From NCBI RefSeq assembly GCF_900070355.1, contig NZ_LN849456.1:2232001-2296000 (forward strand): a DNA stretch of 64,000 bases, read 5' to 3'. This document shows positions 29,835-62,315 of this stretch, one piece after another. The position numbers and the translations under genes were made by a program. How positions within the stretch are numbered: the stretch's first letter is position 1; each line of letters begins with the position of its first letter. This DNA is from Devriesea agamarum. Lineage in GTDB: Bacteria > Actinomycetota > Actinomycetes > Actinomycetales > Dermabacteraceae. The notes beneath the pieces were generated by a model. That model did not search any database and was not told the origin of the DNA. It saw nothing but the letters and a program-made list of their open reading frames with translations.

Positions 29835-31352
29835 TCAGCGTGCGTTGACGGTGAAGGCCTTGAGCGCCACGTTGGTGTTGGACCAGTTCCTTGTGGCATC
29901 CGACCACTGGCTGCCATCGCCACTCACGAAGCTCTGGTTGGACTGCGCGGTGGCCCGCGATGCGAATCCCCAGACCGGGCGTTCGAGCGGGATAGAGGCC
30001 CGACCGCTGGGAGAGGTGACCTTCACGATCGGTGCGAAGTAGGAGCCTCCGGTGACCGGGACCGGGTTGAAGTTGATGACGTGGTAGCCGGCATCCTTAA
30101 TGGTGCCTTTTGCAACCGGTTTGAGGTTGCTGTTCATCAGGGACCCGTTCACCTTCGGGTTCACGTAAATCTCGTAGGTGACGCCCGGCTCGGTGGTGTA
30201 GAATCCAGCGCCGTTGACGGACTGGTTCTTATCCGAGCTAAACACGTTCGAGAACCAGCTGGTCTTTCCGAAGGATGCGCCGGAGGTCATGCCCAGCGGA
30301 TCGTACTGGAAGATGTTGTCGCTGGTACCGGTGTTGCGGGTCTTGTAGACGACGTTGTTCTGGCCGACGAACGCATCGTAGTAGGACACGTAGTAGTAGC
30401 CCTTATCGCTGCCGGGCCAGTTCGCGCCCCAGCTGTTGCGGACGATCCAGGCACCGTTTCCCGGGGGCGCCTGCAGGAAGTTCGACGCGGAGTAGTTGTC
30501 GTCCCAGCCCACGATGGCTACCGCGTGGTTGGACTGACCGTAGCCGGGGTTGTACGAGGCAGCAGTCTTCCGGTTGAAGACGCCATTTTCGTTGCCGTTG
30601 ATGGTGGTCTCCACGGCGCCCGAGGTGTACACCGCTTCCTTGATCGGATCGAGGTTCGTACCGCGTCTGCCTTGATCGGGAACGTACTCGGCTTCGTAGA
30701 GATCCTTAACCCGCTTCAGGCCCTTGGGGGATACGAAGTTCTTGGGCTGGTATGGATCGTCTTTTTCAGCGATCGGGCCGCTCCATCGCGCCAGGTAGGC
30801 GGTGGAGATGCTGCGGTTGCCACCCTGCTCGGGTCCCCAGTCAAAACCGTGGGTGTTGCGCATATTGGCTTCGGAGAAGTCCTCAGGATCGCCGGGCATG
30901 AGGAAGGATTCGGCGGTGGCCATAGCGGCAAAGGCCCAGCAGGATCCGTTTGGTCCTTGGTTGCGGACGGGGGTGAGTTTGTTGTGCTCGCGAAGATCGT
31001 AGCGTTCAGGCAGGTCTTTGGTCGCGGTCACGGAGCGCGTTCTGGTTGCTGAGGTCGCGGTCGTGACGGGGTTCGGGATAGCCGCAGCGCCTTTGCCTTC
31101 ACGGGTCAGCTGAGCTGCTGTTTTATCGGTGCCAGCCAAGCTGGACTTTTGCCCGGACAAAGCCATCCGGGTGACTTCAGCCGTGAACTTGGGGTTGACA
31201 GCGTTAAGCGTGACCCCCTGGGCTTTATGGTTGGCGTCTTTGACGGGTGATACTGCTTGGTCGGCGGACGCGGCGATAGGCATCAGTCCGGACGCGATCA
31301 TGGTTCCGGATGCGGCCAGAGCCAGCGCGGTGGACCTTAGGGTTTTCTTCAC
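29835..31352 (-). CDS. Secreted papain-like (C1) cysteine peptidase with lectin-like domain
   Basis: 505 aa from ATG 31352. The signal peptide MKKTLRSTALALAASGTMIA ... PIAASA probably ends near residue 30. A pro-region runs to about 112, then LPERYDLREHNKLTPVRNQG begins the catalytic domain: oxyanion Q132, nucleophile C138 (GPNGSCWAFAAMA), H276 (QSNHAVAIVGWDD) and N306 (WIVRNSWGANW). After residue 340 a beta-rich region (GVTYEIYVNP ... GGSYFAPIVKVTSPSGRASI ... QSFVSGDGSQWSD) corresponds to the lectin-like domain that follows C1 peptidases in several Gram-positive secreted proteins. There is no sortase motif or membrane anchor, so the protein is expected to be released. It probably cleaves host or environmental proteins. 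Confidence 0.94.
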   Translation of the reverse strand: MKKTLRSTALALAASGTMIASGLMPIAASADQAVSPVKDANHKAQGVTLNAVNPKFTAEVTRMALSGQKSSLAGTDKTAAQLTREGKGAAAIPNPVTTATSATRTRSVTATKDLPERYDLREHNKLTPVRNQGPNGSCWAFAAMATAESFLMPGDPEDFSEANMRNTHGFDWGPEQGGNRSISTAYLARWSGPIAEKDDPYQPKNFVSPKGLKRVKDLYEAEYVPDQGRRGTNLDPIKEAVYTSGAVETTINGNENGVFNRKTAASYNPGYGQSNHAVAIVGWDDNYSASNFLQAPPGNGAWIVRNSWGANWPGSDKGYYYVSYYDAFVGQNNVVYKTRNTGTSDNIFQYDPLGMTSGASFGKTSWFSNVFSSDKNQSVNGAGFYTTEPGVTYEIYVNPKVNGSLMNSNLKPVAKGTIKDAGYHVINFNPVPVTGGSYFAPIVKVTSPSGRASIPLERPVWGFASRATAQSNQSFVSGDGSQWSDATRNWSNTNVALKAFTVNAR

Positions 31353-36850: not shown

Positions 36851-37756
36851 GTGGACATTACGGTGATCGTGCCCGTATACGGCCCGGCTGACGAAGCCCT
36901 ACCCCTGCTTCGGGCGGTCGCCCACACCAATCCGCCGGTGCGCACGATCGTCGTAGACGACGCCTCCCCGGTTCCTGTCAACAGCCATGAACTGCCGGCA
37001 TCGGTTGAGATCGTGCGGCGAGACCGCAACGGTGGATTCGGGGCGGCGGTCAACACCGGACTCAACCTGGTGCGCACCACATACGCCCTGGTTCTGAACT
37101 CCGACCTGACGATCCCAGACGGTTTCATTCCGAACCTTCTGGCGCACGCGAGCCCATTTCAGCCCGCCGTGATCGGGCCACGGGCCGTTGACCCGCACGG
37201 GCGCTCCGCATATTCGGGCCGCTATTGGACCACCACCAGACAGCAGGTGATCGAATGGCTGGTCCCGCTTGCTTCTCAACGCCACCGCGCGGTACTCCAC
37301 GAAGCCGTGGGACACGACGTTCGGGCAGACCGCGCCCACGGACTGGTCCCGGTTGACTGGGTATCCGGTTGTGCCATGCTGCTGCCCGTGGAACAGGTGC
37401 GTGAGGTGGGCGGGTTCGACGAGGAGTACTTCATGTACTGCGAAGAAGTCGACCTGCAAAAGCGGCTGGCTGAGCGCGGGGTTCCCGCGCTCTTAGATGC
37501 AGATCTGACCGTGGTGCATGAAGGAGGAGGCTCCTCCAGCTCTGAACGGCGCCGACGCTGGCTAGTCGCAGCCCGGGATCGGTACGCCCGCAAATTTGGT
37601 CGGCCTCGTCTGCTTCGGCTCGGTCTGCTGAGTGCGACCGGAGTGAATCTGCTGTGGAATCTCGGGCGGCGAGCAGCGGGCCGCGCCGTGGATCCGCTGG
37701 CGGTCGCACGCTTCGAGGTGTCTCTCGTGCGCGAAGCGGCAAGGAGTGCCCGGTGA
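36851..37756 (+). CDS. Family 2 glycosyltransferase (rhamnosyltransferase-like)
   Basis: 301 aa from GTG 36851, one base after the kinase stop, with SD-like gagg at 36841-36844. The GT-A fold starts MDITVIVPVYGPADEALPLL, with nucleotide-binding IVVDDASPVPV, NGGFGAAVNTGLN and the D-x-D-like YALVLNSDLTIPDGFIP. DWVSGCAMLLPVEQVREVGG and FMYCEEVDLQKRLAERG are typical of rhamnosyl/galactofuranosyl-transferase-like GT2s. A cytosolic enzyme, it probably adds a sugar to the lipid-linked repeat unit. Donor and linkage cannot be told. Confidence 0.93.
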   Translation: MDITVIVPVYGPADEALPLLRAVAHTNPPVRTIVVDDASPVPVNSHELPASVEIVRRDRNGGFGAAVNTGLNLVRTTYALVLNSDLTIPDGFIPNLLAHASPFQPAVIGPRAVDPHGRSAYSGRYWTTTRQQVIEWLVPLASQRHRAVLHEAVGHDVRADRAHGLVPVDWVSGCAMLLPVEQVREVGGFDEEYFMYCEEVDLQKRLAERGVPALLDADLTVVHEGGGSSSSERRRRWLVAARDRYARKFGRPRLLRLGLLSATGVNLLWNLGRRAAGRAVDPLAVARFEVSLVREAARSAR

Positions 37757-38772
37757 CAACGACGCGACGGCTCATGCTGGTCACGCCAAACTTTCATGGA
37801 TACTGGCGCAGTATTCACGAGGCGTTAGAACGGATCGGGCACCAGGTAGTAACAATCCGCTACGACGAATACGCCGGGGTCGCAGACAAAGTGCGGCTCA
37901 AGCTCGCGGTGGAATTGCCGGAGCGGCTGGGAGCGCACTCTGCGAGAGTGGCCGAACGCAGGCGTATCACAGCCCGGGTGCGGCTGGCAGTGCAGACAGT
38001 GCGCCCCGACGGCATCATCGTGATTAAAGGTGACCTGCTGGATGACACCTTCTGGCAGCTGCTGGATGAGCATCGCATCCCGCGCATCCTGTGGCTCTAC
38101 GACGACCTGCACCGACACGACTACACCACGGAATTCTTGCGCCACATCGGGCCGGTGCTGTCCTACTCCGCGCAAGAAACCGAGATGCTACGCGCTGAGC
38201 ACGGTGTGGATGCCACCTTCATTCCCAATGCGTTTGACCCCTACCGCGCTGAACCAGCTACTCAGCGCACAGGTGAGATCGTGTTTGTCGGCGCCAGCTA
38301 TCCGAACCGAGTCGAGCTATTAGAAGGCCTAGCGCAGCGAGGACAACCAGTCCATGTGTGGGGGAGGGACTTCTCCCGGCACCCCCTGGACCGACTGCGC
38401 ACCTGGTCCTGGTCTCGTCCAGCGCTTGAGGCCTCGCGCGATGTGCCCTTAGACGAGGCATACCGGATCGGGTCCCGCGCCGCCGCGGCAGTCAACATCC
38501 ACGGACTGCAAACGGGCCACGCCATGCGTACCTTTGAAGTGCCCGGTATGGCAGGGGTGCTGCTCGTCGATCGCGACGACGTGGCGGACTTCTACGACGT
38601 CGGCGAGGAAGTCGCGGTATGGCACAGCATTGACGAGTTAGATGACCTGTGCACCCGTGCCCGGACAGACCGACCCTGGGCAGACGGGCTCCGTGAACGA
38701 GGCCGGCGTCGAACCCTTGCCGAGCACACCTTTGATCACCGGATGCGGAAGGTGGATGAGCTATGGGACTGA
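37753..38772 (+). CDS. CgeB-like GT-B glycosyltransferase
   Basis: 339 aa from GTG 37753, overlapping the previous stop (GTGA), with SD AAGGAG at 37741-37746. The N-terminus MTTTRRLMLVTPNFHGYWRS gives the first Rossmann domain. IVFVGASYPNRVELLEGLAQ and WGRDFSRHPL lead into the C-terminal nucleotide-binding domain. VNIHGLQTGHAMRTFEVPGM matches the CgeB/spore-protein-like GT1 family motif (N-x-x-x-x-R-x-F-E-x-x-x). A DLHRHDYTTEFLRHIGPVLS segment is also typical. Probable sugar transferase in the surface-glycan pathway; substrate unknown. Confidence 0.86.
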   Translation: MTTTRRLMLVTPNFHGYWRSIHEALERIGHQVVTIRYDEYAGVADKVRLKLAVELPERLGAHSARVAERRRITARVRLAVQTVRPDGIIVIKGDLLDDTFWQLLDEHRIPRILWLYDDLHRHDYTTEFLRHIGPVLSYSAQETEMLRAEHGVDATFIPNAFDPYRAEPATQRTGEIVFVGASYPNRVELLEGLAQRGQPVHVWGRDFSRHPLDRLRTWSWSRPALEASRDVPLDEAYRIGSRAAAAVNIHGLQTGHAMRTFEVPGMAGVLLVDRDDVADFYDVGEEVAVWHSIDELDDLCTRARTDRPWADGLRERGRRRTLAEHTFDHRMRKVDELWD

Positions 38773-39959
38773 ACCACCCCCGGGATATGGACGCGTGGCG
38801 ACGATGGGAGGCGTCCCGACATCGTCTGCGGCGGGCTAAACACGCGCTCGCCGATCGTGTACGCCGTTCGGAAGCAGATCGCGCACCAGCCCGCTGGCAA
38901 GTGTTTACCCGCGAAGGAGTCGGTGCTCCCATCCTGGTGGCAATTGACTCCCTGACACCAACCTCGAAGGCTGCGCTGCTGGACTCCCTGGCATACCTGC
39001 GCTCGGGCGTGCTGGTGGTGGCCCCCGCAACCCTTCCGCTAAACCGCGCCCTGGCCGATGCAGCGGGCGGACAGCGACCCACCTCCCACCTCATCGACGC
39101 CACCCCCGAAGAGCTCGCGGCAGCCGTTGACCAGGCCGGAGGAGCCAAAGCGGTCGTCTCCCTGGGGCACCACCTTCCGGTGGGGGAGCTCGTGCACAAC
39201 CTCGCCCGCTCCCGATCATGGCCGTCATACGTGGTGCAACACGGTGCGCTCACCCCGTACACGCCGCCTCTGCCGCAGGACACCACCCTGCTGGCCTGGT
39301 CCGCAGCCGACGCTGACTTCTGGACGGTAGGGCGCCACGATGTGCGCAGTGTGGTGGTCGGTTCCCAACTGCTGTGGCAGGCCGGTCACCGCCCGCATGA
39401 AGGATGGATCGGTGAAGCCCCGGTATTCCTCGGGCAGATGCACGGCATCGAACTTCCGCGTCGGCTCATGGGACGCGCCGCCTTGCGGTTTTGCCGCGAT
39501 AACGACGCCGCCTACCGCCCCCACCCCTCAGAAAAAGACATCGCCTCCCGGCTGCGTCTGGACATGTGGAAACGGTTCGGACTACAAATCGCCCCCACCG
39601 ACGTGCCACTCAGCAAACTCGACCGCCCCGTAGTGGCCGTGTTCTCCACGGGAGTGTTGGAATCTGCGGCACGCGGCATCGCCTCGTGGGTGTATTGCCC
39701 CGGCGCACCTGCGTGGGTGCGCGAGTTCTGGGACCGATACAACATGCGCGCTTGGGGCGGTGAACCCACTTCCGCCCCAGTGATCCCCGAAGATGAGCCC
39801 GCGGTCAGCGTCGCCCAGATCCTGGATGGTCCCGAAGCGCTGGATACGCATCGGACATCTGGGCAGGATATAATGGTCGATCAGGGCAAAAGAGGTGAGT
39901 CCGTGTCGAACGGGCCCTCCGGGCGCGGGCAACGGCCCGCCGGAAAGGACCAAGCGTGA
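38763..39959 (+). CDS. Polysialyltransferase/KpsS-like GT-B protein, candidate nonulosonate transferase
   Basis: 398 aa from ATG 38763, overlapping the previous stop by 10 bp. Not a standard GT family by eye. Three features resemble bacterial polysialyltransferase, CDP-glycerol-type and KpsC/S-like enzymes: VVQHGALTPYTPPLP (a nucleotide-side loop), AYRPHPSEKDIASRL (the H-P motif that binds the CMP phosphate) and VAVFSTGVLESAARGIASWV (the S/T motif followed by the helix dipole). It lies directly upstream of the NeuA-type and NeuB-type genes, so it is a good candidate for the enzyme using the CMP-nonulosonate. The first 50 residues are rich in Arg, and a disordered C-terminus ends the protein (GPSGRGQRPAGKDQA). 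The assignment is inferential. Confidence 0.6.
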   Translation: MGLNHPRDMDAWRRWEASRHRLRRAKHALADRVRRSEADRAPARWQVFTREGVGAPILVAIDSLTPTSKAALLDSLAYLRSGVLVVAPATLPLNRALADAAGGQRPTSHLIDATPEELAAAVDQAGGAKAVVSLGHHLPVGELVHNLARSRSWPSYVVQHGALTPYTPPLPQDTTLLAWSAADADFWTVGRHDVRSVVVGSQLLWQAGHRPHEGWIGEAPVFLGQMHGIELPRRLMGRAALRFCRDNDAAYRPHPSEKDIASRLRLDMWKRFGLQIAPTDVPLSKLDRPVVAVFSTGVLESAARGIASWVYCPGAPAWVREFWDRYNMRAWGGEPTSAPVIPEDEPAVSVAQILDGPEALDTHRTSGQDIMVDQGKRGESVSNGPSGRGQRPAGKDQA

Positions 39960-40666
39960 CGATCCTCGTCGTGATCCCCGCCCGCGGCGGGTCCAAGGGC
40001 ATACCCCGCAAAAACCTTCTGCCAGTTGGGGGTAGGCCCCTGATCGCATGGACGATCGAGCAGTGCCTAGCGGCGGCCCCAGCAAGTGATCTACTGGTCA
40101 CGGTCTCCACCGAAGACACCGAAATCGCGAACGTCGCCCGAGCCCACGGCGCGCATGTCATCCAACGCCCCGCCGACCTCGCGCAGGACACCACCCCGAC
40201 CGAACCGGTGATCCTGCACGCCATGGACGTGGCCGAATCTCAGGGCATCGACCTGGAAGCGGTCATGTTGCTGCAAGCCACCTCACCGGTGCGGCTTCCC
40301 GGAACCCTAGATCGGGCGGTAGCCCAATTCCGCGACACGGGCTGTGACAGTTTGGTCGGTGTGCTGCCAGAGTCGCCATTCTTCTGGCATCTGCCAGAGA
40401 GCGACGGTCAGCAGCCCCGCGCCGACTACGACTGGACGGCTCGACCGCGTCGCCAGGAACTCACCCCGCATCAGCTCACCTATTTCGAGAACGGCAGCCT
40501 GTATATCACCTCCCCCCGCATCTACCGCGAGCAGAAAAACAGGATCGGCGGCCAGATCTCGCTGTTCGTGCTGGATGAACTCGAAGGCGTCGACATTGAT
40601 ACCCCGGCGGATATCGCCGCCGCCGAACAAATGCTTGCTCGCACAGGATGGAACCCCGCCTCATGA
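39956..40666 (+). CDS. neuA: NeuA-type CMP-nonulosonate cytidylyltransferase
   Basis: 236 aa from GTG 39956, overlapping the previous stop. VIPARGGSKGIPRKNLLPVG is the CMP-sialic acid synthetase CTP-binding signature with Arg/Lys. VTVSTEDTEIANVARAHGA, QRPADLAQDTTPTEPVILHA and VMLLQATSPVR (Q-x-T-S-P) are all typical. ENGSLYITSPRIYRE and ELEGVDIDTPADIAAAEQML complete the fold, with the last Asp residues as metal ligands. The enzyme activates a nine-carbon acidic sugar (sialic, legionaminic or related) with CTP. Sequence alone does not decide which sugar. It overlaps the NeuB-type fusion gene downstream. Confidence 0.9.
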   Translation: MTILVVIPARGGSKGIPRKNLLPVGGRPLIAWTIEQCLAAAPASDLLVTVSTEDTEIANVARAHGAHVIQRPADLAQDTTPTEPVILHAMDVAESQGIDLEAVMLLQATSPVRLPGTLDRAVAQFRDTGCDSLVGVLPESPFFWHLPESDGQQPRADYDWTARPRRQELTPHQLTYFENGSLYITSPRIYREQKNRIGGQISLFVLDELEGVDIDTPADIAAAEQMLARTGWNPAS

Positions 40667-42912
40667 TTCTCGACCGCCAGATCGCCCCCTACACGGTGTC
40701 GGCTCAGGACACTGCGCTGCACGCATTGCGTCGCATCAATGAGAACCAGGCGCGGATTGTTTTCGTGGTCGACGAACATGGCACCGTTCAAGGCGCCCTC
40801 ACGGACGGCGACATGCGCCGCTGGCTCATCGCCCACGACCAACCGGATCTCTCCGCCCCCGCTCTGCAGATCGCTAATCGGTCGTTTGTGTCGGTGGCTG
40901 AAGGCACCCCGTTGGACGAGATGCAGGCCATGACGCGCCCGGGCCTGGATCGCATACCGGTGCTAGATGAGCGAGGCCGAATGGTCGCGGTCGCCACCAC
41001 GGAAAAGATGACGTTGCGAATCGGTCGCCACATCGTGGGTCCCGGCCACCGGTCCTTGCTGATCGCTGAAATCGGGAACAACCACCAAGGCGATGTCGAC
41101 CTCGCCAAGCGTCTGGTGGACCTCTGCGCGCAAGCGGGCGCGGACGTGGTCAAGTTCCAGCTGCGCGATATGGCAGCCCTGTATCGGTCCGGCGGTAGCT
41201 CCAGCTACGGAGAAGATCTCGGACCGCAATACACCATGAACCTGCTGGCAAAGTATTCGCTTAGCGCTGACGACATGCTGCGAGTGCTCGACCACTGCGC
41301 TGCCCGCGACATCGACGCGATCTGCACCCCCTGGGATATTCCGTCGGCCAATGTGCTCCATGACTACGGACTGCCAGGCTTTAAGATTGCCTCTGCCGAC
41401 CTCACTAACCATGAGCTGCTGCACCACGTTGCGGGAATGCATCGTCCGATGATTATTTCCACCGGGATGAGCACCGAAGCGGAAATCCGCGACTCCGTGA
41501 ACCTGGTGCGTTCGCACGGGGCACCGTATGCGCTGCTGCAATGCCAATCCACTTATCCTGCGCCGTACAAGGACGTTCACCTGCGGTACATGGACCGGCT
41601 GGCGCAGATCGGCGAGTGCCCGGTCGGCTATTCGGGCCACGAACGCGGCTGGCATGTGCCGATTGCTGCTGTCGCCCGCGGCGCCCACATCATCGAAAAG
41701 CACGTGACGGTCGATAAATCCCTCGAAGGCAACGACCATAAGGTGTCCCTGCTCCCAGACGAATTTGCCCAGATGGTGCAGCAGATCCGCGATGTGGAGC
41801 TGGCGCTGGGAAGTGACCGGCCCCGCGAAGTGACCACGGGTGAGCTGATGAACCGTGTGAACCTTGCGAAGTCCTTGGTCGCCACACGGGATCTTGCGCC
41901 GGGAGATGTGATCGCTGAAAGCGATGTGACGGTGAAAAGCCCTGGCCGTGGACTGCAACCGAACCGCCGCGCCGACCTGATCGGAAAGGTTGTGCACCGC
42001 ACGGTCGCAGCCGGGGACTTCTTCTATCCCGGCGATTTAGTCGGTGAAGCCAGCACCGTTCACGAGTACTCGTTTAAACGGCCGTGGGGTCTGCCCGTGC
42101 GCTACCACGATGTGCGCCCGCTGCTTGAGGTCAGTGCCCCAGACTTCCTGGAATTCCATTTCTCCTACCGCGACATGGAAGCGGACCCGCATGCGATCTT
42201 CGCCCCGGGAGAAAAACTTCCGCAATTCTTCACCACCCATGCGCCGGACCTGTACGCCGGGGATTTCCTGATCGACCTCGCCAGCCCCGACGAGGGAATC
42301 TGGGAACGGTCGATCCGCGAAGTGCAAAACGTCATCGACATTACCCGGCAGCTGCGTGAACACTTCACCTGCGAGCAGGACCCCGTAGTCGTAGTGACCA
42401 TGGGCGGTTTCTTGCCGGACCGGCATGTTTCGCTCGACGAGCGCTACCCCATGTACGAGCGCATCCAGCGAGGCTTGGAGCGCTTGGATGAGACGGGTGT
42501 GCGACTGACCGCCCAAACTTTGCCGCCGTTCCCGTGGCTGATGGGTGGCCAGCAGTTCCACAACCTGTTCATGGATCCCGAAGACACCGTGTGGTTCTGC
42601 GAGAAATATGGACGCCGCCTCACCTTCGACGTCTCCCATTCCAAGCTCGCCGCGAATTTCGCGGGCCGTCCGTTTAGCGAATACGTGGACTTAATGGGCC
42701 CCCACATTGAGCATCTGCACATTGTCGACGCCGTCGGTGTCGACGGTGAAGGTGTTCAGGTGGGCAACGGCGAAGTGGACTTCAGGGATCTAGCTGAGCG
42801 CCTGGCCGTCCATGCTCCTCACGCCTCCTTCATCCCCGAGATTTGGCAGGGTCACGTCAATAACGGCGAAGGTTTCTTTATCGCTCTCGACCGACTCCGG
42901 GCATGGCTGTGA
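40663..42912 (+). CDS. neuB: CBS-NeuB-SAF-TIM-barrel fusion: nonulosonic acid synthase with extra domains
   Basis: 749 aa from ATG 40663, overlapping the neuA stop (ATGA); an ATG 15 bp earlier is possible. Residues 1-120: a CBS-domain pair (TALHALRRINENQARIVFVV, ALTDGDMRRWL, RIPVLDERGRMVAVAT). Residues 128-385: NeuB barrel with LLIAEIGNNHQGDVDLAKRL, DVVKFQ, QCQSTYPAPY, YSGHERG (His326) and EGNDHKVSLLPDE (His359), the metal-site motifs. Residues 398-460: SAF/antifreeze-like domain (NRVNLAKSLVATRDLAPGDV). Residues 470-749: a xylose-isomerase-like TIM barrel with FDVSHSKLAANFAG, HLHIVDAVGVDGEG and FIPEIWQGH, positions expected for metal ligands. NeuB condenses an N-acylated six-carbon sugar with phosphoenolpyruvate. 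The C-terminal barrel may supply or modify the precursor; its reaction is unknown. Confidence 0.88.
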   Translation: MILDRQIAPYTVSAQDTALHALRRINENQARIVFVVDEHGTVQGALTDGDMRRWLIAHDQPDLSAPALQIANRSFVSVAEGTPLDEMQAMTRPGLDRIPVLDERGRMVAVATTEKMTLRIGRHIVGPGHRSLLIAEIGNNHQGDVDLAKRLVDLCAQAGADVVKFQLRDMAALYRSGGSSSYGEDLGPQYTMNLLAKYSLSADDMLRVLDHCAARDIDAICTPWDIPSANVLHDYGLPGFKIASADLTNHELLHHVAGMHRPMIISTGMSTEAEIRDSVNLVRSHGAPYALLQCQSTYPAPYKDVHLRYMDRLAQIGECPVGYSGHERGWHVPIAAVARGAHIIEKHVTVDKSLEGNDHKVSLLPDEFAQMVQQIRDVELALGSDRPREVTTGELMNRVNLAKSLVATRDLAPGDVIAESDVTVKSPGRGLQPNRRADLIGKVVHRTVAAGDFFYPGDLVGEASTVHEYSFKRPWGLPVRYHDVRPLLEVSAPDFLEFHFSYRDMEADPHAIFAPGEKLPQFFTTHAPDLYAGDFLIDLASPDEGIWERSIREVQNVIDITRQLREHFTCEQDPVVVVTMGGFLPDRHVSLDERYPMYERIQRGLERLDETGVRLTAQTLPPFPWLMGGQQFHNLFMDPEDTVWFCEKYGRRLTFDVSHSKLAANFAGRPFSEYVDLMGPHIEHLHIVDAVGVDGEGVQVGNGEVDFRDLAERLAVHAPHASFIPEIWQGHVNNGEGFFIALDRLRAWL

Positions 42913-44138
42913 CCACTGCCGGTTCTGGTGTGCATCCGTCTGATCCGGGGGCAGATGTTCCCGATCCGGAGGTGCAGACCGCTGATGTAGGTGCGCACAG
43001 CCCCGATTCGCAAGGCAATTTCCGGATACGGACTGCCTTGTGGGTTGCTCCCGTCGCGGAGCTGGGAGGTGTTGCGCGGCACGTCCTGGATGTAGTGAAG
43101 ACGGGGATTCCTGGATGGCGCGTGATTGTCCTATGTCCTCCCGGGCCGCTCGCCGAGGCGATCCGTGCGCTCAACGGAGCGGTGATCACCGGCCAGATTG
43201 GTCCCGGGTGCGCAGGAAGCAGCAAGGCGAGTGCTCAGGCATCCATCGCCACGTTGAGACGAGTGGCAGCCAGGCTGCGCCCCGACATCGTGCACACCCA
43301 CCTCGCGTTCGCGGACATCGTGGCCGTCCCGGCCACCTTCGGCCTGCGCACCGCCGTCGGCACCCCCATCCGGTGTGTAAGCACCGAACACGGCATCGCG
43401 GCAGATTCACGCCTGTACAACGCATCGCTGCTCACCTCAACAGCGAAACGTCTAGCCCACACCATGCGCCTGCGCCGGTTTTCCTGTGTGATTGCGGTGT
43501 GTGAGTCTACTAAACGCGAGATTTTGCGCCAGTGGGGATACGGGCCGGGTATGCCGCCGGTGCTGGTCATCCCCAACGGCGTTGACCACCCCGACCCGGC
43601 ACCCGTGCCGGCTACTGGCCTGCGAGTGCTGTCTCTAGCCCGCCTATCTCAGGAAAAACGCATTGACCGGGTCATCGAGGCCATTGCTGCGGTGCGCCAA
43701 ACCCATCCTGAGGTGCGGCTGACGGTGGCGGGAATCGGCGAACGCGAACACTACCTGCGCGACTTGGCTGCACGGTTGGATCTGCAGGGCGTAGTTGACT
43801 TCCCCGGGCACATCGATGCCCGCTCGGCGTTGCTCGATCACGACGTGGTAGTGCAGTTATCCGCCTGGGAGAACTGTTCCTACACCCTGCTCGATGCCGT
43901 CGCCTATGGCCTCGGGGTCGTGGCAACCCCGGTGGGTGGCAACCCGGAAATTGTGCCGGATCGATGCTTGGTCCACGCCGACGACACCGCCACGGTCGCT
44001 GAACGCCTCATCGCGCAGGGGCTCGACCTCTCGGCCAGGCCCTCCCCCACCTCCTGGCGCTGGACCCGGGCCGCTATGTGCGCTCGGCTCAGCGAAGAGT
44101 ACGACAGATTGACAGGTAGATGGCAAATAGCTCCGTAA
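42903..44138 (+). CDS. Family 4 glycosyltransferase (GT-B)
   Basis: 411 aa; ATG 42903 or the GTG at 42909 (GTGA overlap with the previous stop) are both possible. A disordered 38-residue N-terminus precedes TALWVAPVAELGGVARHVLD. CESTKREILRQWG and LVIPNGVDHPDPAPV close the first domain. LRVLSLARLSQEKRIDRVIE, ENCSYTLLDAVAYGLGVVAT and VGGNPEI are the GT4 second-domain motifs (E-x(7)-E-like, here weaker: AWENCSYTLLDAVAYG). It is a retaining GT probably acting in assembly of the repeat unit. Sugar unknown. Confidence 0.92.
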   Translation: MAVTTAGSGVHPSDPGADVPDPEVQTADVGAHSPDSQGNFRIRTALWVAPVAELGGVARHVLDVVKTGIPGWRVIVLCPPGPLAEAIRALNGAVITGQIGPGCAGSSKASAQASIATLRRVAARLRPDIVHTHLAFADIVAVPATFGLRTAVGTPIRCVSTEHGIAADSRLYNASLLTSTAKRLAHTMRLRRFSCVIAVCESTKREILRQWGYGPGMPPVLVIPNGVDHPDPAPVPATGLRVLSLARLSQEKRIDRVIEAIAAVRQTHPEVRLTVAGIGEREHYLRDLAARLDLQGVVDFPGHIDARSALLDHDVVVQLSAWENCSYTLLDAVAYGLGVVATPVGGNPEIVPDRCLVHADDTATVAERLIAQGLDLSARPSPTSWRWTRAAMCARLSEEYDRLTGRWQIAP

Positions 44139-45388
44139 CGCTTACCGGTTCCCGCGAAACTTTCGCCCGCGCGGTCAGTGATCAGGCACACCGTACCGTC
44201 GGTATCATTCGTATTCCCGAGTTCATCGGCGGCCTGCTGCTGGTGACCGACGGCGTAAACCTCCCCGAGCTAAATTTCCCGCTGTCCCTTGTCGGAGTTG
44301 GACTGCTCGTGGTCACAATGATCGTGAGGGGCAGCCAGCGTAGCCTCGGTCGTTTCTCGGTAGCCCCCGTCATTTTTGCGCTCGCGCTGTGCTTTGTGGT
44401 GGCGGTCTCGATTACTACGGATCACTCGGCGCTTGCTAGTGACTGGGGACGGCGGGCACTGCGCATCGGGGCACTGCTTCTGTTCGCGTTCTTAGCGGCC
44501 GAGGGACGAATGGATCTGCGATCCCTTCTTAAAGGTCTGTTCGTCGGGCTTATCGCCAACACTGTGCTGTTTTATGTCGGCGTCGCCCCGGACGAATATG
44601 GCGGCTACCTCACTGGGTATCTTCAGGACAAAAACAAGGCTGGCCTGTTGTATTCCTGCGGCGGTCTGCTATTGCTGCTTTTGGCTAAAAGCAGGTGGCA
44701 GATCACGGGTGTGGTGGTATTTCTCGCCGCAACTACCTGGCTGACCGGTTCGCGTACCTCTTTGACCGGTTTGCTGGTTGCGTTCGTGTGGATGCTGCTG
44801 GTGACGCGGTGGAGCAAGTGGCCTCGGATAGTGGCCGCGGTCGTCATCATGCTGGTCGTGGATTTCGTGGAACAAAACTTTGCCCGCGTCGGCGAGTTCG
44901 CTAGCAGGCTCGGTTCGGACGAGCTGCGTGGTCGCATTGACGCCGCAGCCAGCCTCAAAACCGCGGCGTCACCCCTCCAAGGCCGTGGCCTGGGGGAAGC
45001 GTATGTGATCATCGATGACAATAAATGGTTCTACCACAATTCGTATTTGTCTTTGCTGGTCGAAGGGGGCTGGATCTACGCGCTCGTGATTGTGGGGGCC
45101 ACCGTCATCATCGGGTTCGGGCCGCTTCGTGACACCCTGTATACCCGGGAAATTCGCATTGCAGAAGGCGCGATGGCTTGTCTCATGGTGTGCGCGTGGA
45201 AGCTCGGCGAAGTGTTCCTCACCAATACCTGGGCGCTGGTGCTGATGGTGAGCATGGTGACTGTTTTGATGAGGGATCGCGGAGTGAGTTGGGATGAGGT
45301 GTCCGTGTTCAACCCGCGGCTTAGCAGAGCCCTGCGCAAAGCGCAGAAGATGCCCGCGTCCTCCAGCGTGCCATGGAGGCATTCGTGA
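44120..45388 (+). CDS. O-antigen ligase/polymerase-like (Wzy/WaaL) membrane protein
   Basis: 422 aa from ATG 44120, overlapping the previous gene by 19 bp. About ten hydrophobic helices. LTGSRTSLTGLLVAFVWML has the R-rich short loop, and a large outside loop around 240-310 contains LQGRGLGEAYVIIDDNKWFY followed by HNSYLSLLVEGGWIYALVIV (H-N-x-x-L, the O-antigen ligase signature with a conserved His). Such proteins polymerise or attach undecaprenyl-linked glycans at the outer face of the membrane. It would be the polymerase for this operon. Confidence 0.88.
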   Translation: MANSSVTLTGSRETFARAVSDQAHRTVGIIRIPEFIGGLLLVTDGVNLPELNFPLSLVGVGLLVVTMIVRGSQRSLGRFSVAPVIFALALCFVVAVSITTDHSALASDWGRRALRIGALLLFAFLAAEGRMDLRSLLKGLFVGLIANTVLFYVGVAPDEYGGYLTGYLQDKNKAGLLYSCGGLLLLLLAKSRWQITGVVVFLAATTWLTGSRTSLTGLLVAFVWMLLVTRWSKWPRIVAAVVIMLVVDFVEQNFARVGEFASRLGSDELRGRIDAAASLKTAASPLQGRGLGEAYVIIDDNKWFYHNSYLSLLVEGGWIYALVIVGATVIIGFGPLRDTLYTREIRIAEGAMACLMVCAWKLGEVFLTNTWALVLMVSMVTVLMRDRGVSWDEVSVFNPRLSRALRKAQKMPASSSVPWRHS

Positions 45389-56514: not shown

Positions 56515-57138
56515 GTGACGTCACGCCCCACTCATTTGGATAGCTCTGTGCCGCGGTCTCTGTGTGCGGTTGCCTATGCGGTGGCTGTGCTCAGCCTCGT
56601 GGCCGGAGGAGTTCTCGTTTTATGGCCTAGCGGTTGGGCCGTTAACCGTTTAGTGGTATTTCTCTACTACCGCGCTGTGCAACCGCTCGGTTTAGCGGAG
56701 ATGATTAGTCTCGACCGATTTGATGACCTGCTCAACGTGGCGCTCTTTGTTCCGCTGGTCGCGGCGTTAACCATTATTCGGCGGACGTGGTGGTGGGTTG
56801 TCGCCGGGGTGGTATTGAGTGGCGGTATTGAGCTTTTCCAAGCCCTAGTGATGACACAGCGGTATGGCACGGTGACCGACGTTATCTCCAATAGCTGCGG
56901 CGTTCTCATCGGCGCCCTGATCGGGCGTGGCATGTGGTGGATCGCTGTCAGCCGTGCCCGTCACACCCGTCACCGGGGCGGTATTCGCCAAGACGCCCGA
57001 GGTGTGACTAATCGTCCACACGACGCCGGTGATGCAGCAGAGACATCGCCGCACGTGGAAAACGCAAAAACCACTCCTGGATGCAATCCCGGAGGGTCGG
57101 CGTCCGCCCCAGGCGCAAACGCAGGTGATCGGGGTTGA
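56515..57138 (+). CDS. VanZ-like membrane protein
   Basis: 207 aa from GTG 56515, three bases after the previous stop and thus co-transcribed. Four hydrophobic helices. SLDRFDDLLNVALFVPLVAA (D-x-x-x-N-x-x-L-F-x-P, VanZ motif) and GGIELFQALVMTQRYGTVTD with VISNSCGVLIGALIG are characteristic. VanZ-family proteins confer low-level glycopeptide tolerance or act in envelope polymer handling. The last 44 codons (57008-57138) overlap antisense with the next (-) gene, and the tail is disordered (TPGCNPGGSASAPGANAGDR). Confidence 0.9.
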   Translation: MTSRPTHLDSSVPRSLCAVAYAVAVLSLVAGGVLVLWPSGWAVNRLVVFLYYRAVQPLGLAEMISLDRFDDLLNVALFVPLVAALTIIRRTWWWVVAGVVLSGGIELFQALVMTQRYGTVTDVISNSCGVLIGALIGRGMWWIAVSRARHTRHRGGIRQDARGVTNRPHDAGDAAETSPHVENAKTTPGCNPGGSASAPGANAGDRG

Positions 57139-57868
57139 CATGAAGCGCATCCCACAAAATCGCGGCGCGAGCACGGACCCCGCGTGCATCGCGGAACCGC
57201 GCACGCCACACCTCACCTGGGTCCTCTCCCGCAAGCACGGCCGTCCACAGATAGAAGCCGGGCTTACCGCGCATCGCAGGCAGGTTTCCGGTGGCAGCGG
57301 CAAACGGAACCTCACCGCCGAGATCGTGGGCGAGGCGGGTCAGATCCTCGCGTTTATCTGCCGACAGAATCTCCCAGGTGCGGTTGCGATCATGCCCAGA
57401 CTTGCCCATTGCATCCCGCGCCGAATGCAAAAGCAGCAGCAGACGCTGACCTCGCAGCGATGGCACCTCGATATCCCAGCCTGCCAGCGTGACTTTCTCC
57501 CGTTCCGCCCACAGCGTCTCGAAGGTGCGAACCGGATCCTGGTCGAGGCCCGGGAACGTGCGATGCACATCCACCGTGCCCCAGGTGCGGTGGTAAAACG
57601 TCGCGGCGTGATGGAACACCGAGCCATGCCGGAAGTGGGTGATCTGCTCCCAGTCATGCGCTATCAGGGTGCTAAGATACTGTTCGACGTCATGTGGGTG
57701 AATTATGACGTCGCAATCGCTGCTCGCAGGGCGTCCATCTGCAAGCTTGGGATGCAGAGCCACTCCTTTGATATGCAGAATGCGGGCGCCTGCCTCGCGT
57801 CCGATGAATTCAAGGCAGGCGTGCCCGAGCTCCAAAAGAGCCGGGATGGAAACCTGATCGATGGACAT
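57008..57868 (-). CDS. NTP_transf_5-family nucleotidyltransferase-like protein
   Basis: 286 aa from ATG 57868; a longer upstream frame lacks family features. HIKGVALHPKLADGRPASSD and CDVIIHPHDVEQYLSTL show the conserved K34-G35 and the metal D51-x-D53. A third acidic residue is in WGTVDVHRTFPGL (D100). VPSLRGQRLLLLLHSARDAM is the alpha-helical region typical of PF14907 (uncharacterised nucleotidyltransferase). Relatives often occur with PqqD-like proteins and HPr-kinase-like proteins in peptide-modification and polysaccharide loci. The function is not established. The end overlaps the VanZ-like gene by 131 bp, tail to tail. The opposite strand of 57008-57868 also shows an open frame, but it has no family signature. 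Confidence 0.82.
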   Translation of the reverse strand: MSIDQVSIPALLELGHACLEFIGREAGARILHIKGVALHPKLADGRPASSDCDVIIHPHDVEQYLSTLIAHDWEQITHFRHGSVFHHAATFYHRTWGTVDVHRTFPGLDQDPVRTFETLWAEREKVTLAGWDIEVPSLRGQRLLLLLHSARDAMGKSGHDRNRTWEILSADKREDLTRLAHDLGGEVPFAAATGNLPAMRGKPGFYLWTAVLAGEDPGEVWRARFRDARGVRARAAILWDALHVNPDHLRLRLGRTPTLRDCIQEWFLRFPRAAMSLLHHRRRVDD

Positions 57869-57977
57869 GTGACCATCGTAGGTGCATTGCGGACATCGGA
57901 CCGAACCAGGTCCGGATGGGCAGGCGCTCAGGACGGAACAGTACGTCCCTCGAGAACGACGATAAGGACACGACGAC

Positions 57978-59186
57978 ATGTGGATGCTTGAGGGGCGGCG
58001 CCAGTCCTATGCCTGGGGCTCGGTCGATGCGTTGCCGCGTCTCCTGGGGGTGGAGCCCGATCAGGATCCATTTGCTGAGATCTGGTTCGGTGCCCATCCC
58101 GTGGCGCCGGCACTAGTGCAGCGAGATGGCGGGCCGATCACGCTTGATGCGTTCATCCAATCCCAACCTCGGCGCGTGCTGGGGGATGCTTCACTGCGTA
58201 GATTCGGGCCCACACTGCCCTATCTGCTGAAGATGATTGCTCCGGCCAAACCTCTGTCGCTTCAGGTGCATCCGAGCCTGAACCATGCCCGGGAGTCCTA
58301 TGCTGCGGAAAACGCAGCCGGTATCGCGCTGGATGATCCGGCGCGCAACTATCGCGATGACAATCACAAGCCTGAAATGATTTTCGCCCTCAGCCGGTTC
58401 GAGGCTCTGTGCGGCTTTCGCACCCCTCGTCGCGCGGCATCCATCTTGGAGGGACTGGGCGTAGATCTCACAGATCGTTTGCACGCACTGCTGTGCTCGC
58501 AGCCGACGGCGACAGGTATGCGTGCGGCATTTCGGGCACTGCTGTCCCCGCACATTGAAGTCACACCCACGATGATTGAACAGGTGGTTGTCGCTTGCTC
58601 GCATCGCCTGTGCGAAGGCACGTCGCCGTCGCCCCGTATCGATGCGATTGTCGCTTCGCTGCACGAGCACCATCCGGGGGATCCCGGGGTGCTGACCGCC
58701 CTTCTACTGAATCCAGTCACGCTTGAGGCGGGGGAAGCGATGTTTGTTCCGGCGGGGGCTGTTCACTGTTACCTGAGCGGGCTCGCTGTGGAGATTATGG
58801 CTGCATCAGATAACGTGCTGCGAGCTGGGCTTACGCCCAAGCGGGTTGACGCGGACGAAATGCTGCGCTGCGTCAGTTGTGTGGCAGCTCCTCCCATGCG
58901 GGTGGCCGCTGAACGGGCTGTCGGCGGCACCGATGTGTTTTACGCACCGGTCGATGATTTTGAACTGTCGGTAACCCGGTTAGAAGGCGGCAGGTCATTT
59001 CAGCCGCGCACTCGGATTCCGGGGTCCGGGGCTCGGATCTTACTGGCGGTTGAGGGGGAGATCTTGGTGGAGACCGGAACGGGCCGCATGCTGGTGCGCG
59101 CGGGAGAAGCCGTGCTGGTCGCCGACGAGGATGGGGACGTGTGGGCTGGCGGTTGCGGGTGCGTGGTTCAGGGGGCGGTTCCGTGA
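57978..59186 (+). CDS. manA: Mannose-6-phosphate isomerase (class I)
   Basis: 402 aa from ATG 57978 with SD AAGGAC; a second ATG (MWM) follows at 57984. The cupin-type class I PMI is shown by KMIAPAKPLSLQVHPSLNHA with zinc ligand H in Q-V-H-P, DDNHKPEMIFAL, and FVPAGAVHCYLSGLAVEIMA with LRAGLTPKRVD. The enzyme interconverts fructose-6-phosphate and mannose-6-phosphate and feeds GDP-mannose and related sugar donors. It leads into the PqqD gene with a GTGA overlap, forming one transcription unit. The location in the glycan locus suits a role in supplying mannose units. Confidence 0.95.
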   Translation: MWMLEGRRQSYAWGSVDALPRLLGVEPDQDPFAEIWFGAHPVAPALVQRDGGPITLDAFIQSQPRRVLGDASLRRFGPTLPYLLKMIAPAKPLSLQVHPSLNHARESYAAENAAGIALDDPARNYRDDNHKPEMIFALSRFEALCGFRTPRRAASILEGLGVDLTDRLHALLCSQPTATGMRAAFRALLSPHIEVTPTMIEQVVVACSHRLCEGTSPSPRIDAIVASLHEHHPGDPGVLTALLLNPVTLEAGEAMFVPAGAVHCYLSGLAVEIMAASDNVLRAGLTPKRVDADEMLRCVSCVAAPPMRVAAERAVGGTDVFYAPVDDFELSVTRLEGGRSFQPRTRIPGSGARILLAVEGEILVETGTGRMLVRAGEAVLVADEDGDVWAGGCGCVVQGAVP

Positions 59187-59602
59187 CTCAGTCCCGCGTA
59201 GTGAACACTCCGGGTGGGTCGGGGTCATCGCCTGTATCGTCACGAAACATGGTGACACTTCACCCGTGGGTGGCTTTTACCGACGACGGCGAGGACTTAG
59301 CACTGGGCAGGATTCCGGATGGGCCCGTGGTGCGGGTATCTGGGCCCGTTGCCATCCTGTGCGATCTGCTGATCGCACGCCGAGAGCAGGAGGGCCCAGG
59401 TTTGCGCGTTGACGATCTGCTGACGGAAGTCCTCGAAAGCTACGATGATGTTCCCGATCAGGCGCGGGATCAGCTTCTTGGGCTGCTCAATGATCTGGTC
59501 GCTCACGGCTTTGTGGTGGTTAGCGATGGCATGTCCGCGAGTTCGGGGGAACGGGAGCACATCCGACCAGGACGACCCCAGCAGGAGCGACCTAGCCGAT
59601 GA
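59183..59602 (+). CDS. PqqD-like peptide chaperone-type protein
   Basis: 139 aa from GTG 59183, overlapping the manA stop. After a disordered leader, MVTLHPWVAFTDDGEDLALG starts a PqqD-like winged-helix fold, continuing VVRVSGPVAILCDLLIA, LLTEVLESYDDVPDQARDQL and LGLLNDLVAHGFVVVSD. PqqD-type RiPP recognition elements bind leader peptides in PQQ, lasso peptide and SPASM-type systems, but PqqD-fold proteins also occur in polysaccharide and cell-envelope loci. No precursor peptide is evident here. Coupled to the next gene by overlap (stop at 59602, start at 59599). Confidence 0.83.
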   Translation: MTQSRVVNTPGGSGSSPVSSRNMVTLHPWVAFTDDGEDLALGRIPDGPVVRVSGPVAILCDLLIARREQEGPGLRVDDLLTEVLESYDDVPDQARDQLLGLLNDLVAHGFVVVSDGMSASSGEREHIRPGRPQQERPSR

Positions 59603-61038
59603 ATCACTCTGACCAGGATCCACCGAGACATGGCTTCACAGGTGCCATTGATGCGCAAGGTGCTGTGCATATGCGGGGCGTTGAGTATCCCCAGTGCACT
59701 GGAGATACCCAGAGTGTGGGATCTTCCGATTCCCTGTCGCACCCGGATTACTTAGATATTGAAGCTGCTGGCTGCTGGGCGCGCATTAGATTGCCCGAGG
59801 ATGCTGATGCTAGAGCGCATTTGATCTCTCTATGGGGGCATCTGCGTGCCGCTGATTCGCCCGTGTGCCAAGGGCGGTTGGCGGGCGTTGAACAGCGGAT
59901 GTCTGCCGAACCTTCGATCGTGGTCGGTCCACCAACAAGTTTGGGGCCCGGTTACGACTTTGACCTATCGGGTCAGCTCACGCTGGAACTGCTGTGCCAC
60001 CTGGTGGGGTCGCGACTGCTGTTGCATGCCGGGGTGGTTGATGTCGATGATCTCGGTCCGGTGCTGCTGATCGGACCCTCAGGGGCGGGCAAATCGACCG
60101 CTACCATCGAGTTGGCTCGCCACGGACTTTACCTCACCGACGAAATGGCCTGCCTAGACCCGCGGACCCTCGCGGTTGAGGCCTATGCCAAACCGATATC
60201 TCGGGTGGTGAGTGAGGGACAACGACCTACGGATTCGATTCGTTCGCGCTACAAAGAAGACTTTGCGCCATCGGCGCTGGGCATGCGCGTCGGCGATCGA
60301 GCTAGTGCGCCGGTCGCGGTGGTGCTGCTGGAACGCAGTGACCATCACCAGGGGCCGCCCGTGCTCACGTCGGCCTCGTTGATGGAAGCGTTGCCCTTTA
60401 TCGTGAGCCAGTCCAGCTCGGTGTGGGCGCTGCCGGACGCGTTGCAGCTGCTAGTGCGATTGTGCCGGGGCCAGTTTGGGGTGCTCAAGGCGTCCTACCG
60501 GGAAGCTGGTGATCTGGTGACAGCGCTGCGCAGTTCCCTGACTGGCGCCCCGGAACAGATGTGGGAGCATCTGCCGCTCTCGCAGGCGGTGGGTGTGGCT
60601 GCGGGGCAGACGACGAAGAACTCAGGTGATTTTTCAGGCACGGTCTGCTCTGCACGCATGATCGAATCCGCACATGCGTTTGGCTTAGCGGGCACGATTG
60701 GCCCCGCCCATCCGGTCGAGCCCAGTGACTCAGGAACCGAGACCATTGAGGGTAAGGATTTAACCGGCTGCTCCTACCAGTTGCTTCCCTTTGCTGATGC
60801 GGGGCTCCTGCCGGAAGGGTTGATGATTTTGCGCGACAGTCAGGTCATCACCTTGAGCGGGGCTGGCGCTGCCGTGTGGCTATCCCTGTACGAAGATGGC
60901 GTGTTGTCCTATGCCCAGCTTTTAGAGTATGCGCTGAACTCCGGAGAAGACGTTCCTCCCGCCCTGATCGAGGACGGTCTGCGCACTGCGTTGAGCAGCC
61001 TCATTGGCAACCGGCTAGCGACGACTCTCCCCAGCTAA
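59599..61038 (+). CDS. HPr-kinase-like ATPase with C-terminal PqqD domain
   Basis: 479 aa from ATG 59599, overlapping the PqqD stop. A disordered first 45 residues precede a beta-rich part. The kinase-like core has PVLLIGPSGAGKSTATIELA (P-loop 159-167), then HGLYLTDEMACLDP (acidic T-D-E at 180-182), AKPISRVV and a Walker-B-like VAVVLLER. This is the HPr kinase/phosphorylase fold, seen in lasso-peptide kinases and in surface-polysaccharide-linked proteins of unknown role. The C-terminus (about 400-479) is a second PqqD-like domain: GLMILRDSQVITLSGAGAAV, LSYAQLLEYAL and ALSSLIGNRLAT. A kinase acting on a peptide, a sugar or an anchored acceptor is possible; the substrate is unknown. Confidence 0.8.
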   Translation: MNHSDQDPPRHGFTGAIDAQGAVHMRGVEYPQCTGDTQSVGSSDSLSHPDYLDIEAAGCWARIRLPEDADARAHLISLWGHLRAADSPVCQGRLAGVEQRMSAEPSIVVGPPTSLGPGYDFDLSGQLTLELLCHLVGSRLLLHAGVVDVDDLGPVLLIGPSGAGKSTATIELARHGLYLTDEMACLDPRTLAVEAYAKPISRVVSEGQRPTDSIRSRYKEDFAPSALGMRVGDRASAPVAVVLLERSDHHQGPPVLTSASLMEALPFIVSQSSSVWALPDALQLLVRLCRGQFGVLKASYREAGDLVTALRSSLTGAPEQMWEHLPLSQAVGVAAGQTTKNSGDFSGTVCSARMIESAHAFGLAGTIGPAHPVEPSDSGTETIEGKDLTGCSYQLLPFADAGLLPEGLMILRDSQVITLSGAGAAVWLSLYEDGVLSYAQLLEYALNSGEDVPPALIEDGLRTALSSLIGNRLATTLPS

Positions 61039-61235: not shown

Positions 61236-61273
61236 TGCTCTGGTTACCCGGGAGTGCTCTGGTTACCCGGGAA
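61236..61273. repeat. 19-bp tandem duplication overlapping the MauE-Trx stop codon
   Basis: Bases 61236-61254 and 61255-61273 differ only at the last position (tgctctggttacccgggag/a). The minus-strand stop TAA (tta at 61263-61265) is contained in the second unit; the first unit is outside the gene. Confidence 0.85.
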
Positions 61274-62297
61274 TGCCCGGGGCCGAGGTGCTCTCCGACA
61301 GGTGCTCGGTCACCTCGGTGTGAATGTCGCGCACAAACTGAATAATCTGGTCGGGTCCGGATACTGGCCCACCGGCCAGCAGGCCATCAGCTCCTAACAA
61401 GACCGCTGAAGGTGCGCCGGGGTAGTCCATGACCAGTGACACGCTGTCGTTGTGGTCGAACAGGATGTTCGCATCCTCAATACCGTGGTCACGGATTTTT
61501 TGTATTCCGTCATCGTCCGAGGTGCCGAAAACCATGACTTTCACATCGAGAATGCTTGATAGTGAGCGGGTCCACTCGGGAACGAGGGGCAACACATCGT
61601 GGCAGTACCGGCACCAGGGCGTCACCATGACCAGCACGACGGCCCGTGTGCTGGCGAGCTGGCGAAGAGTCACATTCTCACCGGCAGACGTTGTGGCAAG
61701 ACCCATCGGGATGGGTGTGCGGAGGTAGTCGTCTTCAGCCGGGGATAAACCGGATGAGGGGGCAGCTGCTCGGCCCGGGCTGAGGATGAGCGACGCCAGC
61801 ACCCCGGCGGCGCACAGCGCGATCAGGCCCCATAGCGCAGACCATCCATGCTCAGACAAGTAGGACCATAGCCCGCCGCCAAGCGTAGATACCAGCGAAA
61901 AAACAAGGGCGAAGCCGAGCAGAAGAAGATTGCGGACTAGGGTGCGGACGGTGACCTGCATCGGGGCAAGCTTGCCGAAACAGCCACAGTCAACAGGATC
62001 ATCGAACCGCAGCGCCCGCGCGATGAGCACCGTATAGACCAGCATGAGGGCGACCGTTGCCCACGCCGCGGCGCGTCCGAGCATCCCCGCCGCACCTCCT
62101 AGGCCCGTGAGCGTCAACCCGATGGCGAGCAGAGCTTCGATGGTCGGCAGACACAGCGCCCACCAGGTTTTCTCGAACGGTCGGGGTAGACGCAGGTCAC
62201 GTGCGGCCCGACGGGTCCCAGGAACATCCAGGTATTTGGCGATGGCACTGACCGCCAGCACGGCAGTCAGCACGAACCAGCAGATCACGACGAACAT
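61263..62297 (-). CDS. MauE-like membrane protein fused to a thioredoxin-like domain
   Basis: 344 aa from ATG 62297 with SD AAAGGA about 9 nt upstream; a GTG at 62315 is in frame. Residues 1-175 have four to five helices of the MauE/DoxX type, with CGCFG (C104/C106) in DDPVDCGCFGKLAPMQVTVR. Residues about 185-344 are a thioredoxin-like (AhpC/TlpA) domain with the pair C229/C232 (VTPWCRYCHDVLPLVP) and cis-Pro region near YPGAPSAVLLG. MauE, TlpA-like and Trx functions are linked in methylamine dehydrogenase maturation and extracytoplasmic disulfide handling. Fusion is known in actinobacteria, but the partner here is unknown. It would shuttle electrons across the membrane to reduce a cell-surface protein disulfide. 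Confidence 0.88.
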   Translation of the reverse strand: MFVVICWFVLTAVLAVSAIAKYLDVPGTRRAARDLRLPRPFEKTWWALCLPTIEALLAIGLTLTGLGGAAGMLGRAAAWATVALMLVYTVLIARALRFDDPVDCGCFGKLAPMQVTVRTLVRNLLLLGFALVFSLVSTLGGGLWSYLSEHGWSALWGLIALCAAGVLASLILSPGRAAAPSSGLSPAEDDYLRTPIPMGLATTSAGENVTLRQLASTRAVVLVMVTPWCRYCHDVLPLVPEWTRSLSSILDVKVMVFGTSDDDGIQKIRDHGIEDANILFDHNDSVSLVMDYPGAPSAVLLGADGLLAGGPVSGPDQIIQFVRDIHTEVTEHLSESTSAPGIPG

Positions 62298-62315
62298 GCC
62301 AGGATTTCCTTTCAC

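Follow-up and report, generated by a model that had tools for sequence, protein, structure and literature searches.

A four-domain nonulosonic acid synthase from Devriesea agamarum with a fused sugar-isomerase-like barrel

Introduction

The nonulosonic acids of bacterial surfaces are as a rule attributed to a series of precursor enzymes. We analyzed a stretch of 64,000 nucleotides from Devriesea agamarum (contig NZ_LN849456.1, positions 2,232,001 to 2,296,000; the whole stretch is called the window) in which one gene of an exopolysaccharide locus encodes a nonulosonic acid synthase with a CBS pair ahead of its NeuB and SAF domains and a xylose-isomerase-like barrel behind them. The synthase is probably self-supplying for a non-aminated nonulosonic acid, most likely 3-deoxy-D-glycero-D-galacto-nonulosonic acid (KDN), and together with NeuA would form a two-gene cassette within the locus. 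Self-supply was the best supported explanation because of the conserved metal site of the barrel, the neighboring neuA gene, the lack of precursor genes nearby, the altered acceptor pocket and the occurrence of KDN in Serratia.

Domain architecture of the synthase

The synthase is encoded in a single unbroken frame of 749 codons running from an ATG at 40663 to a stop at 42910-42912 (Table 1). The synthase gene shares its first 4 bp with the end of the upstream neuA, start codon overlapping stop codon (CTCATGATT), and the start of the downstream family 4 glycosyltransferase (GT4) gene at 42903 falls inside its 3' end, leaving neuA, the synthase and the GT4 gene closely packed. All four Pfam families scored above the gathering cut-off, with CBS matched in two stretches (42 bits), NeuB at residues 151-385 (258 bits), SAF at residues 403-460 (43 bits) and AP_endonuc_2 at residues 531-746 (59.5 bits against a cut-off of 31.1). 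A preliminary description of the window had proposed this four-part layout in one frame and had named a frame split by sequencing error, or loss of the barrel metal ligands in homologues, as outcomes that would show the barrel not to be an enzyme; the open reading frame and the domain search bore out the layout, and the frame is intact and has many full-length relatives.

A genome scan returned 61 loci, about 45 of them with NeuB and the barrel in one frame. Because the architecture recurs full-length in these loci and in additional Pseudomonadota, Cyanobacteriota and a rhizobial plasmid, it is neither a chance arrangement nor a join created by sequencing error or assembly. The four-domain architecture is real and widespread, and in the papers searched it was mentioned once, in passing. 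One copy, from Brachybacterium sp. Z12 (L043), is broken into three frames by frameshifts or an assembly error.

The NeuB core and its acceptor pocket

The core of the protein belongs to the NeuB superfamily, both barrel and SAF domain being present, and Foldseek placed it at a TMt of 0.84 to Neisseria meningitidis NeuB (1xuu). The meningococcal enzyme (NeuB/SiaC; 1xuu, 4ipi) is about 30% identical and has neither a CBS pair nor a C-terminal barrel. Its residues E25, K53, Q55, K129, Y186, H215, H236 and D247 were all conserved in the alignment, with the metal and phosphoenolpyruvate (PEP) residues E25, K53, K129, H215 and H236 corresponding to E136, K164, K241, H326 and H347 of the synthase. 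Two positions on the acceptor side differed, with E134 replaced by D246 and R314 replaced by S426. These positions hold Asp and Ser in the barrel fusions, whereas the standalone NeuB/PseI-type proteins in the same alignment retain Glu and Arg. Exceptions among the fusions were L069, with Cys at the R314 position, and the distant L129, which has Ser at the R314 position and Glu at position 246.

R314 of the meningococcal enzyme places the N-acetyl group of N-acetylmannosamine (ManNAc) (PMC6795526), and a further position that reads C2 of the acceptor is Gly in synthases of neuraminic (Neu) and legionaminic acid (Leg) and Phe in those of pseudaminic acid (Pse) (PMC7371886). This position is Ala in the synthase and Pro in L044. 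As R314 is replaced by Ser and the C2-reading position is Ala, we read 2-N-acetyl recognition as lost in the barrel fusions. Campylobacter PseI (8h2c) has the NeuB-SAF fold in common with the synthase but its C2-reading residue is Phe and its SAF domain has Arg, and it relies on Pse precursor enzymes that were not found around the synthase gene. The substrates put forward in the preliminary description (ManNAc-6-phosphate, UDP-sugars and 2,4-diacetamido sugars) fit poorly, because Ser stands here in place of the Arg that positions the N-acetyl group. Identification as a Pse, Leg or N-acetylneuraminic acid (Neu5Ac) synthase by NCBIfam was rejected as the equivalog cut-offs were missed, the N-acetylneuraminate synthase model TIGR03569 scoring 306.8 bits against 399.65 and the pseudaminic acid synthase model TIGR03586 scoring 220 bits against 340.25.

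The C-terminal barrel

An AlphaFold model of residues 469-749 (predicted local distance difference test, pLDDT, 87; predicted template modeling score, pTM, 0.89) contained eight strands in order. The best VIA-align match was a Thermotoga ketose 3-epimerase (2zvr; Z 22.3, root mean square deviation 2.9, 241 aligned residues), followed by MJ1311 and many D-tagatose/allulose 3-epimerases with endonuclease IV close behind; ranked by E-value, Foldseek put a mycobacterial endonuclease IV first. The structure prediction that the preliminary description had proposed as a check thus gave a fold like that of ketose 3-epimerases. D-tagatose/L-ketose 3-epimerases and MJ1311 (2zvr, 5h1w, 3wqo) share the barrel fold and the Asp-His-Glu ligand positions, but they are only 14-18% identical, and the barrel described here is fused to a synthase and has Gln in place of the Glu on strand beta 5.

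Conserved polar residues fall on beta 3 (H526), beta 5 (Q618), beta 6 (D656 and H659), beta 7 (H684 and H686) and beta 8 (E726), and H499, H526, D656, H659, H684, H686, E726 and H731 were invariant across all aligned relatives. The motifs FDVSHSKL, HLHIVDAVGVDGEG and FIPEIWQGH, earlier named as metal-site motifs, coincide with conserved motifs of the barrel. Ligand positions were assigned from family knowledge and the MJ1311 alignment. Within the expected Glu-Asp-His-Glu set the Asp, His and last Glu are invariant, so that the conservation of metal ligands anticipated in the preliminary description held for these three. It did not hold for the first, residue 618, which is normally Glu in this fold but is Gln in the window protein as in most of its relatives, with Glu only in L044, L069, L070 and L076-L079. 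Judged from the alignment, the barrel site is strongly constrained across relatives.

Precursor genes and neuA

Of 30 loci, 24 have a neuA homologue adjoining the synthase gene, and most of the distant loci with enough flank have one close by. The 30 loci were searched with phmmer using UDP-N-acetylglucosamine (UDP-GlcNAc) 2-epimerase, PseC, PseG and PseB as queries, and no UDP-GlcNAc 2-epimerase (NeuC-type), PseC (DegT-type) or PseG was found within them. No sugar-nucleotide precursor genes were detected by Pfam among the window genes tested, and a family by family search of the window's own genome gave no strong DegT match. Genome G001 carries the fusion and an AGE-family gene, without NanE and without a PF02350 match above cut-off. 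In two genomes of the same family (G007 and G010) an ordinary NeuB-type gene belongs to a separate Pse-type cluster, and since G007 also has the fusion, the fusion does not replace the Pse route.

NeuB-cupin fusions

A second design, NeuB-SAF-cupin, was found in seven bacterial loci (L055-L061; for example L055:4914-6482) and 20 loci on IMG/VR viral contigs (L080-L099), whose NeuB proteins are related to each other over nearly their whole length. Domain scans of six of the seven bacterial proteins gave a cupin and a D-lyxose isomerase PF07385 match above cut-off in every case. NeuA/SpsF-type genes lie beside or near the fusion gene in 7/7 bacterial and nearly all viral loci, and in the alignment E134 and R314 are absent from the seven bacterial proteins as well. 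These proteins are therefore like the synthase in having a C-terminal sugar-isomerase-like domain, a neuA-type gene close by and the loss of E134 and R314. They differ in the isomerase fold, which is unrelated (cupin, D-lyxose isomerase family), in the residues that replace E134 and R314 and in having no CBS pair. The cupin fusions look as if this design had arisen a second time. A one-clade test of the fusions did not reject a single origin (approximately unbiased test, AU p 0.54), and the tree itself was not clear on it. That isomerase-like domains of two unrelated kinds occupy this one place, with loss of the same residues, supports the idea that the C-terminal domain makes the acceptor.

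A precedent in Serratia

In Serratia marcescens, the NeuB of capsule types KL1/KL2 (strain UMH9; cloned frame 2241 bp) has an extra COG1082 isomerase/epimerase domain, neuB is required for sialic acid and capsule, and the polysaccharide has a KDN to Neu5Ac ratio of about 20:1; the authors did not test the extra domain, which they left open (PMC9000132). The Serratia protein, of about 746 amino acids with neuA adjacent, resembles the window protein of 749 amino acids with neuA overlapping, although it comes from a different phylum and a CBS pair goes unmentioned in the paper. The KDN-rich capsule agrees with the altered acceptor site of the window protein. A literature search for CBS with NeuB found no paper, and the Serratia precedent surfaced through KDN.

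Proposed route to the nonulosonic acid

The preliminary description had suggested that one polypeptide might carry both precursor supply and condensation; this stands as the best supported explanation, while the barrel reaction itself, and the nucleotide sensing by the CBS pair that the description had also suggested, are putative. The C-terminal barrel would act as a divalent-metal ketose isomerase/epimerase that produces the aldose acceptor from a common hexose, most likely mannose from fructose, free or as the 6-phosphate. On the strength of its family, the SAF-capped NeuB barrel would then condense the aldose with PEP to a 3-deoxy-nonulosonic acid, which NeuA, likewise judged by family, would activate with cytidine triphosphate (CTP). 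The CBS pair might, more speculatively, tune activity to a nucleotide, possibly the cytidine monophosphate (CMP)-sugar end product or ATP.

Several observations weigh against self-supply. The isomerase or epimerase activity of the barrel is something that we infer, and with Gln for the beta-5 Glu in most members the metal site of the main branch is, from its residues, non-canonical. To our knowledge bacteria keep no obvious pool of free fructose. The window's genome (G000) has NanE, an AGE-family gene and one distant PF02350 gene, and an AGE-family epimerase gene is present in all genomes of the same family, so a supply of ManNAc is conceivable. The Glu at the 246 position of L129 departs from the pocket signature, and for the Serratia NeuB we infer the domain order, CBS pair and D246/S426 signature from its size and domains.

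If one polypeptide does supply and condense the acceptor, the presence of two genes could serve to predict KDN-type sugars in many Actinomycetota and Cyanobacteria, and a sequence signature of D246/S426 plus the barrel would set such synthases apart from the Neu5Ac, Leg and Pse synthases among which family annotation would otherwise place them. More tentatively, bacteria may at least twice have extended the NeuB C-terminus with a sugar isomerase, the two isomerases (TIM barrel and cupin) being unrelated, giving a two-gene route from a common hexose and PEP to a CMP-nonulosonic acid in which the acceptor is passed within the polypeptide and one branch has CBS feedback.

Alternative explanations

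It is unlikely that the same design uses another aldose acceptor, a pentose or rare hexose, and makes another ulosonic acid in place of KDN; the closest folds are 3-epimerases, makers of rare ketoses, and the pocket residues are unlike those of characterized NeuB types, but KDN is the main sialic acid in Serratia, which has a NeuB of this type. We consider it quite unlikely that the barrel is non-enzymatic here, serving as a structural or sensing module. The Gln in place of the beta-5 ligand in most members would suit such a module, whereas the other ligand positions and surrounding motifs are invariant over several phyla, beyond what is expected of a scaffold, and another NeuB lineage carries an unrelated, cupin isomerase-like domain in this very position.

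That the protein is an ordinary synthase of the Neu5Ac, Leg or Pse type using an N-acetylated hexosamine, with the barrel only making or modifying that hexosamine, is very doubtful. The NeuB core does match TIGR03569 and TIGR03586, the genome offers the AGE-family epimerase, NanE and PF02350 genes, and the Serratia capsule also holds some Neu5Ac. However, both equivalog cut-offs are missed, the N-acetyl-placing Arg is Ser in the fusions, the genome is without a strong DegT match, no precursor genes lie near the 30 loci and the separate Pse-type clusters of G007 and G010 also speak against it. There is similarly little chance that the barrel serves a different step, whether by acting on the condensation product, as a lyase or as a phosphate-handling relative of endonuclease IV. 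The top Foldseek match and a stretch after H526 (DFLIDLAS) that aligns with endonuclease IV point that way, but sugar epimerases give the best alignments by Z, and on chemical reasoning C3 is a methylene in a 3-deoxy-2-keto acid, leaving little for a 3-epimerase to do.

The CBS pair

Pfam detected two CBS motifs in the synthase, and the PDB entry nearest to the pair in sequence was 4o9k, the CBS part of an arabinose 5-phosphate isomerase, which we take to contain CMP-3-deoxy-D-manno-octulosonic acid (CMP-Kdo). A literature search on CMP-Kdo binding by CBS found no paper. KdsD, the arabinose-5-phosphate isomerase of the Kdo pathway, likewise has a CBS pair joined to a sugar isomerase in a pathway where a PEP condensation follows, but it is a SIS-fold isomerase and the Kdo synthase there is a separate protein. 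A feedback role of the CBS pair on the pathway is plausible. The pair is the variable part of the architecture and was not found in L044, L103-L105, the viral-contig members, L034, L037 and L038. In two loci (L131:5879-7399 and L130:10710-12230) a CBS-GHMP sugar kinase is encoded just upstream of a CBS-less NeuB-barrel fusion, as if the CBS module may move between enzymes of a locus.

Distribution of the fusion

Carriers are mostly Actinomycetota, with others in Pseudomonadota, Cyanobacteriota, a Parcubacteria bin and IMG/VR contigs, several of which encode the fusion. The closest relatives are from Dermabacteraceae (up to 77% identity). Other actinomycetotal carriers include Rothia, Kocuria, Micrococcus, Propionibacteriaceae, Janibacter and Pseudoclavibacter, and the genome scan added Xanthobacter, Synechococcus, a Paracoccaceae bin and the Parcubacteria bin. 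By genome, the fusion was found in 6/13 of the window's family (Dermabacteraceae), 0/197 other sampled Actinomycetota, 5/398 Pseudomonadota and 22/292 Cyanobacteriota, one of the latter (G857/L129) being divergent, and also on one Ensifer (rhizobial) plasmid. The divergent protein (L129:8573-10423) is a 617-amino-acid NeuB with a C-terminal barrel-like region that gave no AP_endonuc_2 match at E 0.001.

Phage origin of the synthase was rejected, with no PHROG match and no match among phage records. Barrel-fused NeuB proteins without CBS were observed in contigs called viral (L065-L070, L076-L079) amid sugar genes such as a GDP-mannose 4,6-dehydratase-like gene. In L065 a DHDPS-family gene lies directly downstream of the fusion, and L070 encodes a second NeuB (L070:1156-1986; 276 amino acids) without SAF and with Met at the E134 position.

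Gene neighborhood

The exopolysaccharide locus extends from 35.2 to 56.5 kb and encodes an AAA-type chain-length/tyrosine-kinase-like protein, several glycosyltransferases, Wzy_C, an ABC exporter and Bac_transf. The nearest NCBIfam model to the neuA-type gene was PseF, with a score below cut-off.

Table 1. Features of the synthase and its neighbors in the window
Feature	Position	Strand	Basis
Glycosyltransferase (Glyco_trans_1_2), conserved neighbor	37654..38772	+	Pfam, cluster comparison
Conserved gene without Pfam match	38763..39959	+	adjoins neuA in 22/30 loci
neuA-type CMP-sugar synthetase (CTP_transf_3)	39956..40666	+	Pfam
Four-domain nonulosonic acid synthase, 749 amino acids	40663..42912	+	open reading frame, Pfam, full-length homologues
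CBS pair, residues 1-118	40663..41016	+	Pfam CBS
NeuB catalytic barrel, residues 131-385; E136, K164, Q166, K241, Y298, H326, H347, D358 kept; D246 for meningococcal E134	41053..41817	+	Pfam, alignment
SAF (antifreeze-like) domain, residues 403-460; S426 for meningococcal R314	41869..42042	+	Pfam, alignment
Xylose-isomerase-like barrel, residues 469-749; H526, Q618, D656, H659, H684, H686, E726	42067..42909	+	Pfam, model, alignments
GT4 glycosyltransferase, overlaps synthase end	42903..44138	+	Pfam
O-antigen ligase/polymerase family (Wzy_C)	44120..45388	+	Pfam

The product of the conserved gene at 38763-39959 had no Pfam match and no meaningful PDB match. It contains the motifs QHGxLTPYxPPL, FLGQMHGxELPR, YRPHPxExD and FSTGVLEAA, and the gene travels with neuA; it could be a candidate transferase for the CMP-activated sugar. 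In the cyanobacterial L128, DUF6716 putative glycosyltransferases occupy its place.

Elsewhere in the window, a type I phosphomannose isomerase gene (57978-59186) lies about 15 kb downstream of the synthase. The window also encodes a papain-family cysteine protease with a lectin-like domain (29835-31352), an NTP_transf_5 protein (57008-57979), an HPr-kinase-like protein (59599-61038) and a MauE protein (61263-62315).

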